Assembly (NCBI RefSeq): GCF_900091565.1
Contig: NZ_FMCV01000017.1
Span: 62,001-126,000 of the forward strand
Direction of reading: 5' to 3'
Length of the DNA: 64,000 nucleotides
DNA from: Micromonospora marina
GTDB lineage: Bacteria; Actinomycetota; Actinomycetes; Mycobacteriales; Micromonosporaceae
Below the pieces are notes generated by a model. That model was given only the letters and a program-made list of their open reading frames with translations. It ran no database searches and was not told the DNA's origin. Position 1 is the stretch's first letter, and each line of letters begins with the position of its first letter. Of the stretch, positions 35,847-38,726 are shown piece after piece. The position numbers and the translations under genes were made by a program.

Positions 35847-35879
35847 GCGTCGGCCGGTTCCACCTGCGACGATCCGTTC

Positions 35880-36452
35880 GTGCCCAGAGTAAGTCAGGAC
35901 CAGCTCGACGCGCGCCGGCAGGAGATCCTCGCGGCGGCCCGGGCGTGTTTCGCCCGGCACGGTTACGAGGGCGCCACCGTGCGGCGGCTGGAGGAGGCCA
36001 CCGGCCTGTCCCGTGGCGCGATCTTCCACCACTTCCGGGACAAGGACTCCCTCTTCCTGGCCGTGGCCGAGGACGACGCCGCCGCAATGGTGGAGACGGT
36101 CGCCCGCAACGGTCTCGTGCAGGTCATGCACGACCTGCTGGCCCGGGCCGTCTCGCCGGACACCACCGGCTGGCTCGGCAGCCAGCTGGAGGTCTCCCGC
36201 CGGCTGCGCACCGACCCCGCCTTCGCCAAGCGCTGGGCGGAGCGGTCCGAGGCCATCGCCGAGGCCACCCGGGAGCGCCTGCTGCGCCAGCGCGAAGCGG
36301 GCGTGCTCCGCGACGACGTGCCGATCGACGTCCTCGCCCAGTTCCTGGAACTGGCCTACGACGGGCTGGTGCTGCACCTGGCGATGGGCCGGCCGGCCGG
36401 CGACCTGGCCCGGGTGCTCGACCTGGTCGAGGAGGCCGTCCGCCGGCACTGA
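35880..36452 (+). CDS. acnR: AcnR-type TetR repressor
   Basis: 190 residues; GTG at 35880. The HTH reads RRQEILAAARACFARHGYEGATVRRLEEATGLSRGAIFHHFRDKDSLFLAVAEDDA. The motif GYEGATVRRLEEATG and GAIFHHFxDK, then ARNGLVQVMHDLL and ISxxLRTDP-like SRRLRTDPAF, match AcnR, the corynebacterial repressor of aconitase. In corynebacteria and mycobacteria acnR is next to acn; here they are about 16 kb apart but share an operator-like element. Downstream is the Cys-rich membrane protein operon, same strand, 104 bp away. Confidence 0.85.
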   Translation: MPRVSQDQLDARRQEILAAARACFARHGYEGATVRRLEEATGLSRGAIFHHFRDKDSLFLAVAEDDAAAMVETVARNGLVQVMHDLLARAVSPDTTGWLGSQLEVSRRLRTDPAFAKRWAERSEAIAEATRERLLRQREAGVLRDDVPIDVLAQFLELAYDGLVLHLAMGRPAGDLARVLDLVEEAVRRH

Positions 36453-36556
36453 ACCGGCAGCGGTCTCGGTCCGGTAACTACGCCCCTCCAGGAGATCGAC
36501 TCTGGCGCGCCTGCTCCACAATGAGCCGCGACCCCTCCTCGCGACAGGAGCAGACG

Positions 36557-37468
36557 ATGACCCCCTCCGACACCTGGGGCATCCCTGGCCCCGTATTCCT
36601 GCGCTGGTACCTCCTGCTCGCCGTCGTCGTTGTCGTCGGCGCGATCGTCCACCGGCGCCGCATGCTGGAGGGCACGCCGGTCGCCGTCCACGGCGGACTG
36701 GGGCCGCAGCAGGTCGCCTTCCTCAACGGCGGCGACCAGCTCGCCGTCTGGGCCGCGCTCGGCGGGCTGCGCCACGCGGGCGTGGTCGGCGTACGGCCGG
36801 ACCGGCGGCTCACCACCGGCGGTCCACTGCCGGCCGGGGCCACCCCTGTGGACCAGGCGGTGCACCACGCGGCGAGCCGGGGCCTGCACACCCGTGAGCT
36901 GGCCGCCGACGAGTGGGTCCGGCGGGCGGTCGACGAGCTGCGCGACGACCTGGTACGCCGGGGCCTGGCACTGGACCAGGAGCGACGCCGGACGCTGCGG
37001 CGCGGCGCGCTGCTGGTCGGCTTCCTGCTCGCCATCGGCATCGTGCGCACGGTCACCGGACTGTTCAACGACCGGCCCACCGGCTGGCTGCTGCTCAGCC
37101 TGTTCCCGCTCGGCCTCGCGTTCGTGCTGCTCAACCGCGTGCCCTGGCGTACCCGGGCGGCCACCGCCGCGCTGAACGACATGCGCCGCCGGCACGCCTG
37201 GCTGCGGCCCGACGCCGGGCCCGCGTACGCCACGTACGGCCCGACCGAGGTGGCGCTGGGCGTGGCGCTGTTCGGCACCGCCACGCTCTGGACCATGGAT
37301 CCGGGCTTCGCGGAGCAGGCCGAGATCCAGCGGCAGGCGCTGGGCCACACGGGCGGCGCGAGCACCGGCACCTCGTGCGGCGGGGGCCCCACCGCCGGTG
37401 GCGCCTCCTCGTGCGGCGGCAGCTCCTGCGGCGGGGGCGGTGGCTGCGGCGGCGGGTGCGGCGGATGA
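36557..37468 (+). CDS. TIGR04222-type membrane protein with Gly/Cys-rich C-terminal tail
   Basis: 303 residues; ATG at 36557 after AGGAG. Helix near 15-32 (WYLLLAVVVVVGAIVHRRR), a soluble region with VAFLNGGDQLAVWAALGGLRHAGVV (helix-turn-helix-like), two helices near 155-190, a short segment near 230-245, then about 45 residues of Gly, Ser and Cys: five cysteines, all in S-C-G-G or G-C-G-G contexts. The pattern matches TIGR04222 proteins. It overlaps the MNIO gene by 4 bp (ATGA), and coupling to a DUF692 enzyme suggests that the Cys tail is the modification substrate, with the protein itself as membrane-held precursor. That role is inference. Confidence 0.8.
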   Translation: MTPSDTWGIPGPVFLRWYLLLAVVVVVGAIVHRRRMLEGTPVAVHGGLGPQQVAFLNGGDQLAVWAALGGLRHAGVVGVRPDRRLTTGGPLPAGATPVDQAVHHAASRGLHTRELAADEWVRRAVDELRDDLVRRGLALDQERRRTLRRGALLVGFLLAIGIVRTVTGLFNDRPTGWLLLSLFPLGLAFVLLNRVPWRTRAATAALNDMRRRHAWLRPDAGPAYATYGPTEVALGVALFGTATLWTMDPGFAEQAEIQRQALGHTGGASTGTSCGGGPTAGGASSCGGSSCGGGGGCGGGCGG

Positions 37469-38283
37469 CCGGTCCGTCCGGCGTCGGCATCGGCTGGCGT
37501 CCCGAGATCGCCGGCTTCGTCGCCGGGCTGCCGGGACTGCGCTTCGTCGAGGTGGTCGCGGAGGCGGTCGCCCCGGCCCGACCGCTCCCCGACGGGCTCA
37601 CCGAGCTGCGCGGACGCGGCGTCGACGTCGTACCCCATGGAGTGCGGCTGTCCCTCGGCGGCGCGGAACCGGTCGACCCGGCCCGGGTGGCGCACCTGGC
37701 CGGGGTGGCCGCGGCCCTGGACGCGCCGCTGGTGAGCGAGCACATCGCGTTCGTGCGGGCCGGCGGCCTGGAGGCCGGTCACCTGCTGCCGCTGCCGCGC
37801 AGCCGAGAGGCGGTCGCCGCGGTGGTGGCGAACGTACGGCGGACGCAGGCGGAGCTGCCCGTGCCGCTGGCCCTGGAACCGATCGCGGCGCTGTTCGACT
37901 GGCCGGACGACGAGCTGGACGAGGCGGACTTCCTCACCGAGATCCTCGACGCCACCGGCGCGCTGCTGCTGCTCGACGTGGCGAACGTGCACGCCAACGC
38001 CCGCAACCGGGGCGGCGACCCGGCCGCGTTGCTGGACCGGCTGCCGCTGGAACGCGTCGCCTACGTGCACGTGGCGGGCGGCGCCGAGCACGGCGGCTTC
38101 TACCACGACACGCACACCGACCCGGTGCCCGCCGCCGTGTTGGACCTGGTCCGCGAGCTGTGCGCCGGACGCCGGCCGCCCGCGCTGCTGCTGGAACGCG
38201 ACGGGCACTACCCGCCCGCCGCCGAGCTGCGCGGCGAGCTGGACGCGCTGGCCGCCGCCTCCGGTCACCCGGTGGTGACGTGA
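37465..38283 (+). CDS. DUF692 multinuclear non-heme iron oxidase (MNIO)
   Basis: 272 residues; ATG at 37465 overlaps the previous stop. TIM-barrel with the MNIO metal residues: Glu92-His93 (SEHIAFVR), Glu138 (ALEPIAAL), Asp171, Asn174, His176 (DVANVHANARN), His202 (YVHVAGG) and His214-Asp-Thr-His217 (FYHDTHTDP). MNIO enzymes use two or three iron ions to modify cysteines or other residues of ribosomal peptides, for example to oxazolone/thioamide, C-terminal amide or excised-carbon products. The neighbour encodes a Cys-rich protein; the next gene is a known DUF692 partner. Residues for metal binding are complete, so it should be active. Confidence 0.9.
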   Translation: MTGPSGVGIGWRPEIAGFVAGLPGLRFVEVVAEAVAPARPLPDGLTELRGRGVDVVPHGVRLSLGGAEPVDPARVAHLAGVAAALDAPLVSEHIAFVRAGGLEAGHLLPLPRSREAVAAVVANVRRTQAELPVPLALEPIAALFDWPDDELDEADFLTEILDATGALLLLDVANVHANARNRGGDPAALLDRLPLERVAYVHVAGGAEHGGFYHDTHTDPVPAAVLDLVRELCAGRRPPALLLERDGHYPPAAELRGELDALAAASGHPVVT

Positions 38284-38726
38284 GCGGCGACCTGGCCGCC
38301 CGGCAGGCCGAACTGGTCGCCGCGCTCGTCGCCGGTGGACCGCTGCCGCCCGGCTTCGCCCCGGCACCGGTCGCGGCGGCACGCCGGGCGCTGCTGCGCA
38401 AACGGGCCGGCGACGTGGCCCGGCACTGGCCGCTGCTCGCCGCCGGACTCGGGCCGGCCTGGCCGGCCACGTTCACCACGTGGGCCGACGGCCGTCCCAC
38501 GAACGGTTCGCTGCGCGACGGCTGGGACCTCGCCCGCGACCTGCGCGACCGGGACACGCTGCCGCCACTGGGCGCGGAGGAGCTGGCCGAACGCGAGGCC
38601 GCGAGCCGCTACGACGGCCGTCGCCCGCCCCGGCCACGCCGGCTGCCGGCCCTCGCCCGGACCGGCGGCGCCGTCGCGGTTCAGGTCGCCGGCCGGGTAC
38701 GCCTGCTGCGGCCCGCCCCACGCTGA
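38280..38726 (+). CDS. SCO6045-like partner protein of MNIO
   Basis: 148 residues; GTG at 38280 overlaps the MNIO stop (GTGA). Begins LAARQAELVAALVAGGPLPPGFAP, then VAAARRALLRKRAGDVARHWPLLAAGL and FTTWADGRPTNGSLRDGWDLARDL, a helical domain seen in actinobacterial proteins next to DUF692 genes (the S. coelicolor SCO6045 type). It occupies the place of the DUF2063 partner in proteobacterial MNIO operons, which binds the precursor peptide. A similar substrate-recognition role is inferred from position. The last 30 residues are basic and proline-rich. Confidence 0.72.
   Translation: MSGDLAARQAELVAALVAGGPLPPGFAPAPVAAARRALLRKRAGDVARHWPLLAAGLGPAWPATFTTWADGRPTNGSLRDGWDLARDLRDRDTLPPLGAEELAEREAASRYDGRRPPRPRRLPALARTGGAVAVQVAGRVRLLRPAPR

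Follow-up and report, generated by a model that had tools for sequence, protein, structure and literature searches.

The operon and its conservation

A stretch of 64,000 nucleotides from Micromonospora marina (contig NZ_FMCV01000017.1, hereafter the window) contains three codirectional genes at 36557-38726 on the forward strand, which encode a membrane protein of the TIGR04222 family ending in a Gly/Ser/Cys tail, an MNIO enzyme, and a short third protein that we call gene 3 (Table 1). An initial annotation, made from the letters of the window alone, had read these genes as a post-translational modification system in which the tail is the substrate of the MNIO. The ATGA and GTGA overlaps that it had noted can be seen directly in the sequence, and the G+C fraction around the operon is 0.77. 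No protease or exporter family was matched by any of the three genes in Pfam or NCBIfam.

Table 1. Positions in the window of the operon genes, the tail and the upstream features
Feature	Position	Strand	Description
Conserved promoter-like element, TGGCG-N3-CTGCTCCACAATG	36503..36523	+	Between the TetR gene and the operon
TetR-family regulator	35862..36452	+	Directly upstream; PF00440, E 4.5e-17
TIGR04222 membrane protein, proposed substrate	36557..37468	+	303 aa; NCBIfam TIGR04222, E 3.9e-55, 187 bits, residues 17-245
C-terminal Gly/Ser/Cys tail	37337..37465	+	About residues 261-303; Cys 274, 286, 291, 297, 301
MNIO enzyme (DUF692, PF05114)	37465..38283	+	272 aa; PF05114, 256 bits
PME-type 2-like MNIO partner (gene 3)	38280..38726	+	148 aa; GTG start; five helices, then three strands

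In the genome of the window, TIGR04222 and the MNIO are each matched once in total, and the two matches lie side by side in this operon. Among 200 genomes of the family Micromonosporaceae, with matches counted at E ≤ 0.001, TIGR04222 was matched in 150 and the MNIO in 134; when the tables were combined by hand, both were present in 133 genomes, only TIGR04222 in 17, only the MNIO in 1, and neither in 49. Within the genus (n = 38, own genome included), 37 genomes had both and one had neither. Among the matches listed, 116 of 149 MNIOs had a TIGR04222 gene no more than 3 kb upstream on the same strand. Some of the other 33 lie at contig ends, and the 16 loci that we took from them included six with a TIGR04222 neighbor and two with a divergent TIGR04222 gene.

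We compared 99 loci: 59 linked MNIO loci (the window's own included), 24 loci with an unlinked TIGR04222 gene and 16 with an unlinked MNIO. The 59 were sampled from the 116 linked matches by taking all 35 of the genus and up to about three from each other genus, which were then thinned. A phylum sample was left unused; most of its TIGR04222 matches fell under the family cut-off, and many lay on open reading frames (ORFs) of at least 600 aa. TIGR04222 and the MNIO occur together in 65 of the compared loci, and gene 3 was found in 63 of these; the remaining two are truncated at contig ends. When public genomes were searched with gene 3 alone as the anchor, all three genes were present in 72 of the best 80 of 208 loci, and 7 of the other 8 were cut by contig ends. 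The stop codons of the operon genes keep a near-constant spacing across the compared loci. Because each of the two families matches once in the genome, with both matches here, and because the gene order recurs across the family, the arrangement is more than chance. We conclude that the three-gene operon is real and strongly conserved, and the co-occurrence of its members that the initial annotation had proposed to look for in other genomes is borne out.

The MNIO enzyme

The MNIO passes the gathering score of PF05114 (MbnB_TglH_ChrH) with 256 bits against 25. Its best NCBIfam model is NF050167 (BufB), which it matches with 172 bits, under the cut-off of 310, so that we do not assign it to BufB; it nevertheless scores higher with the BufB and HvfB models than with MbnB. 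In an alignment of 31 sequences, the window's included, the columns that are invariant or at least 90% conserved include His58, His93, Glu138, Asp171, Asn174, His202, Asp215, His217 and Glu244. Most of these residues presumably occupy the iron sites, as we assume from MbnB. The list of metal ligands given by the initial annotation thus holds for His93, Glu138, Asp171, Asn174, His202 and His217, although its His176 is Tyr in the consensus and its Glu92 and His214 fall outside the conserved columns; it was also incomplete, having overlooked His58, Asp215 and Glu244.

Sequence relatives of the MNIO in the PDB are 3bww and 8hci_D. The alignment to 3bww, which is 72.4% identical to HvfB, places Asn174, Asp215 and His217 of the MNIO at the site-3 residues N175, D242 and H244 of HvfB, and replacing these residues abolished HvfB activity, according to the available part of PMC13419390. 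Judged from its alignment, the MNIO keeps residues that are essential in HvfB, and we predict that it binds iron.

The TIGR04222 protein and its predicted topology

The product of the first gene scores 187 bits with the NCBIfam TIGR04222 model, against a cut-off of 43, and carries the five tail cysteines that the initial annotation had counted. Averaged over 44 sequences, hydrophobicity scales delimit four hydrophobic segments (13-31, 152-170, 175-193 and 229-247), the fourth of which is weak (mean KD hydropathy 1.37). Basic residues lie after segment 1, before segment 2 and after segment 3, the N-terminus is acidic, and the tail holds only 0.02 Lys plus Arg per sequence across the 44. Because of this pattern of charge and hydrophobicity, the N-terminus and the tail are predicted to lie outside, while four segments would span the membrane and the folded domain (about residues 40-150) would be cytoplasmic.

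The AlphaFold2 model has a mean pLDDT of 85, with most of the tail below 50, and a tail of low complexity and low model confidence behind several membrane segments is what is expected of a TIGR04222 membrane protein. The predicted topology supports the membrane anchoring of the tail, as had been proposed. With a tail of about 57 residues, the last helix would be barely out of the ribosome when synthesis ends, which would leave the MNIO time to act in the cytosol.

A sequence-profile search of solved structures with this protein gave nothing significant (best E 0.17). Chains of GOLPH3 and Vps74 stood among the VIA-align rows for about residues 43-260 (best Z 7.6, 152 aligned). We rejected kinship with GPP34/GOLPH3, given that unrelated helical proteins score nearly as high, that Foldseek is non-significant, and that a profile comparison with 15 GPP34 sequences scored 22.6, which does not improve on the 22.1 obtained against the gene 3 family. 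The resemblance to GOLPH3 and Vps74 is therefore kept as a weak lead only.

Gene 3 and MNIO fusions in another genus

Gene 3 had been described as a SCO6045-like helical protein. Its AlphaFold2 model (mean pLDDT 95) is indeed largely helical, but the likeness to SCO6045, which occurs once in a transcript table in the available part of PMC4991794 and is not used as evidence here, is unsupported by any Pfam or NCBIfam model. Pfam and NCBIfam scans of the product found no family match (Pfam at E 0.5). The DUF2063 signature of PME-type 1 partners was absent from it; the 36 members of its alignment gave only three single Pfam hits to other families (best E 0.036), and for the 35 members other than gene 3 itself the Pfam and NCBIfam scans yielded isolated chance-level matches to other families only. 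A sequence-profile search of solved structures likewise returned nothing significant (best E 0.57).

Foldseek alone gave no significant match to the gene 3 model (best E 0.34), with 8hci_A at rank 10. When the 231 chains ranked highest by Foldseek were aligned with VIA-align, the top rows were 8hi7_A from a TglHI entry (Z 5.7, 135 aligned, root mean square deviation 5.2), 8hci_A (Z 5.6) and 7dz9_C from an MbnABC entry (Z 4.9), after which the next row dropped to Z 2.6. We take the matched chains to be the partner subunits TglI and MbnC, which is consistent with their lengths.

In one other genus of the same class, the gene 3 profile also finds a match within the MNIO reading frame in all seven loci (L293-L299; E 4e-14 or better), and in one of these, L296, the gene 3 domain is the C-terminal domain of a single 541-aa MNIO frame. 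The fused frames are independent evidence for a joint action of gene 3 and the MNIO. Gene 3 follows the MNIO, lacks the DUF2063 signature and is related in fold, at a modest score, to DUF2063-type partners, as expected of a PME-type 2 protein. The partner role suggested by the initial annotation is thus supported, and on the modeled fold gene 3 is best read as a PME-type 2 partner.

Tail cysteines and linkage to the MNIO

Within loci that contain an MNIO, the window's own included, all 70 linked TIGR04222 ORFs have tail cysteines, and 65 of them have at least three. The tail ends exactly in CGG in 60 of these 70 ORFs and in 73 of 75 in the loci anchored on gene 3, two sets that have species in common. 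Alignments show the last two to three cysteines to be nearly invariant across genera, while the number and spacing of the upstream cysteines vary. In the window, the last three (291, 297 and 301) fall within this conserved ending, spaced by Gly and finishing in CGG.

Unlinked TIGR04222 ORFs (n = 24) divide evenly, 12 with tail cysteines and 12 without; 3 of the 27 unlinked matches listed, near contig ends, were left out of this count. Those without are the same-genus paralogues, none of which has a tail cysteine and whose tails are RP-rich and 26-27 residues long. The 12 with tail cysteines are from the other genera of the family, all in MNIO-bearing genomes, and include three imperfect rows, one with its tail read as 302 aa, probably after a frame change, and two running off the contig end. 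The claim that the tail is the substrate therefore has partial support at the sequence level: cysteines follow linkage inside the genus, but not in the other genera, and linkage alone is not decisive. One MNIO serving several TIGR04222 proteins in trans may account for both unlinked groups.

Genomes with a TIGR04222 match and no MNIO match (17) provide a further contrast. Five of them contain six proteins above the TIGR04222 cut-off, and five of the six lack Cys throughout their last 70 residues; the sixth (L212) has a single Cys beside its end. In one row of this set (L228), the family match runs across stop codons.

Several loci depart from the usual arrangement. Five hold two TIGR04222 ORFs before one MNIO, with tails that differ in their number of cysteines, and here one enzyme may serve two substrates. 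Loci of Plantactinospora type (L120, L121 and L199) keep the MNIO and the partner with no adjacent TIGR04222 gene. In one such genome (G058), which shares the arrangement of L199, the MNIO lies behind the TetR gene (L120), and the TIGR04222 match listed for this genome, with a Cys tail, is found elsewhere (L103), which is possibly a natural trans arrangement. Separately, we considered the N-terminal motif WG-x-S-G-P as a recognition signal for the MNIO and rejected it, given that the 12 unlinked paralogues of the genus, all with Cys-less tails, carry a similar motif.

Proposed mechanism and alternative explanations

We consider it probable that the MNIO and its PME-type 2 partner oxidize cysteines in the TIGR04222 tail, giving a modified tail that stays anchored. 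The MNIO and partner would form a complex that acts on the Gly/Ser/Cys-rich tail of the membrane protein, and the likeliest product would be a Cys-derived heterocycle such as 5-thiooxazole, as in the HvfB and bufferin systems. We infer that modification would take place in the cytosol, as translation finishes or directly afterwards, and that only then would the tail be translocated, ending as a membrane-anchored segment that carries the modification and probably binds metal.

Several observations weigh against this proposal. The MNIO lies under the BufB cut-off, and the structural match of gene 3 is modest (Z 5.7), Foldseek alone being non-significant. All 12 unlinked TIGR04222 ORFs of the other genera have tail cysteines, which slightly lowers our confidence, and the contrast with the Cys-less paralogues amounts to one evolutionary comparison, because the 12 look like one orthologous group. 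A tail lying outside would also need to be modified before translocation. At L199, in Plantactinospora alkalitolerans, the MNIO and gene 3 have no adjacent TIGR04222 gene.

The genus with MNIO-partner fusions adds a further difficulty. A Cys-tailed TIGR04222 protein stands beside the MNIO only in L293. In L294-L297, which represent four genomes, the last 60 residues of the TIGR04222 protein nearby are free of Cys, and in the genomes that hold L298 and L299 TIGR04222 was not matched at all. The initial annotation had named homologous operons whose first gene lacks a Cys tail as the finding that would speak against it; the 70 linked ORFs of the family all have cysteines, yet L294-L297 come close to that case. 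It is softened by a second, distant TIGR04222 copy with a Gly-rich end and one Cys (L318-L320), which three of these genomes, containing L294, L295 and L297, possess; none is listed in the fourth. A crude scan of ORF tails near the fusions found no convincing Cys-rich precursor. These loci indicate that an adjacent Cys tail is unnecessary for keeping the MNIO-partner pair.

Alternatively, the MNIO and partner may modify the TIGR04222 protein in a way that is not mainly Cys-to-thiooxazole chemistry. The target could be the conserved C-terminal CGG, for example, or some other residue, and the cysteines would then bind metal or form disulfides. In favor of this, most tails of both sets end in exactly CGG while the upstream cysteines vary in number and spacing, and another genus keeps MNIO-partner fusions although the TIGR04222 proteins near them lack tail cysteines. 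However, the best NCBIfam scores of the MNIO are with BufB and HvfB, whose known products are Cys-derived, and it is Cys that separates linked from unlinked paralogues inside the genus. We regard this alternative as unlikely, though it is the strongest of the three that we weighed.

It is less probable still that the tail is an unmodified, Cys-rich metal-binding or disulfide segment, that the substrate of the MNIO is encoded elsewhere, and that the genes are linked through a shared stress response. Cys tails on TIGR04222 ORFs away from the MNIO in other genera speak for this reading, as do Plantactinospora-type loci holding the MNIO and partner with no adjacent TIGR04222 gene. Against it, the genes overlap translationally with near-constant spacing of their stop codons, TIGR04222 is matched in 133 of the 134 family genomes that have an MNIO, and five of the six above-cut-off proteins from MNIO-less genomes have no tail Cys. 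A last and very improbable alternative is that GGC repeats expanded neutrally in a G+C-rich genome and left a low-complexity tail with no function of its own. The base composition around the operon and the varying tail length and repeat number fit this; against it, the final two to three cysteines are conserved across genera together with the CGG end, and the tails of same-genus paralogues are RP-rich and Cys-less.

Upstream element and neighboring genes

The locus around the operon is also conserved. A TetR homologue lies within the locus in 35 of 35 same-genus cases (the window's included) and in 23 of 24 from other genera, and it may regulate the operon. Other neighbors are kept as well, including a HAD gene (34/35 in the genus, 21/24 elsewhere) and an SDR gene (34/35 and 15/24). 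These kept neighbors suggest that the locus has been inherited vertically and is not a mobile biosynthetic cluster.

In the stretch that separates the TetR gene from the operon, 34 of the 35 same-genus loci compared, the window's included, have a best site that fits the promoter-like pattern at 19 to 23 of its 23 positions, four of which are N; the pattern had been drawn from the same sequences on which it was scored. The site in the window is the sole perfect match in the genome. We looked for a regulon and rejected it, given that the genome holds 12 matches at no more than three mismatches, compared with 26 for a reversed control pattern.

These observations raise a fuller picture, which we offer tentatively and with less confidence than the modification itself: a vertically inherited MNIO system of the Micromonosporaceae that would build a permanently anchored, heterocycle-bearing, metal-binding surface tail, modified in the short time that is left, once translation has ended, before it is translocated past a last helix of marginal hydrophobicity. 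If this is true, MNIO chemistry would reach from exported peptides to membrane proteins, and a surface-anchored, modified Cys tail would be conserved across much of an antibiotic-producing family.

Comparison with known systems

A literature search on TIGR04222/MNIO systems, on SCO6045 and on DUF692 with Micromonospora found no experimental study of such a system, subscription papers being mostly outside its reach. The operon resembles the TglHI and MbnBC systems in its partner, in that the best structural matches of the gene 3 model are chains of TglHI and MbnABC entries. It differs in that these matches reach only Z 5.7 and 4.9 and that the MNIO is closer to the BufB and HvfB models than to MbnB; the precursors of TglHI and MbnBC are also of other kinds than a TIGR04222 protein.

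The bufferin and oxazolin systems (BufABC and HvfABC) are alike in having an MNIO and a partner that act on a Cys-containing precursor, and their MNIOs have residues in common with ours. Their precursors, however, have Sec signal peptides and their partners are of PME-type 1 (DUF2063 with an RRE), as described in the available part of PMC12452194, whereas here a multi-pass membrane protein is the proposed substrate, with a short partner.

The closest comparison is with the TIGR04222-MNIO clusters surveyed by Antoine et al. in 2025 (PMC12452194). The accessible portion of that survey collected more than 3,500 TIGR04222 proteins, proposed subsets of them as MNIO substrates, and modeled a 300-residue Micromonospora member with its tail outside and exposed. 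It also assigned a PME-type 2 partner to 10% or more of the TIGR04222 clusters, with many clusters appearing to have no partner genes, and noted that more than a quarter of TIGR04222 proteins have no C-proximal cysteines. A TIGR04222-domain peptide has further been noted in a predicted bacteriocin cluster of Pseudonocardia (PMC5183585, as available). The idea that the TIGR04222 tail is an MNIO substrate is thus an already published proposal and is not new here, and our operon resembles the surveyed clusters in its membrane protein with a Cys/Ser/Gly tail predicted outside, its MNIO and its PME-type 2 partner.

Our analysis adds the frequent CGG end, the Cys-less paralogue contrast inside the genus, the counterexample genus and, unlike what is seen in the survey text, the presence of the partner gene in 63 of the 65 linked loci, with the other two cut by contig ends, and the natural fusions of partner and MNIO that occur in another genus. 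The last two bear on the doubt voiced in the 2025 survey as to whether TIGR04222 clusters have partners. Given that an artificial HvfBC fusion gave an active enzyme, as the available part of PMC13419390 describes, the natural MNIO-partner fusion, which resembles it, may serve as a convenient reagent.

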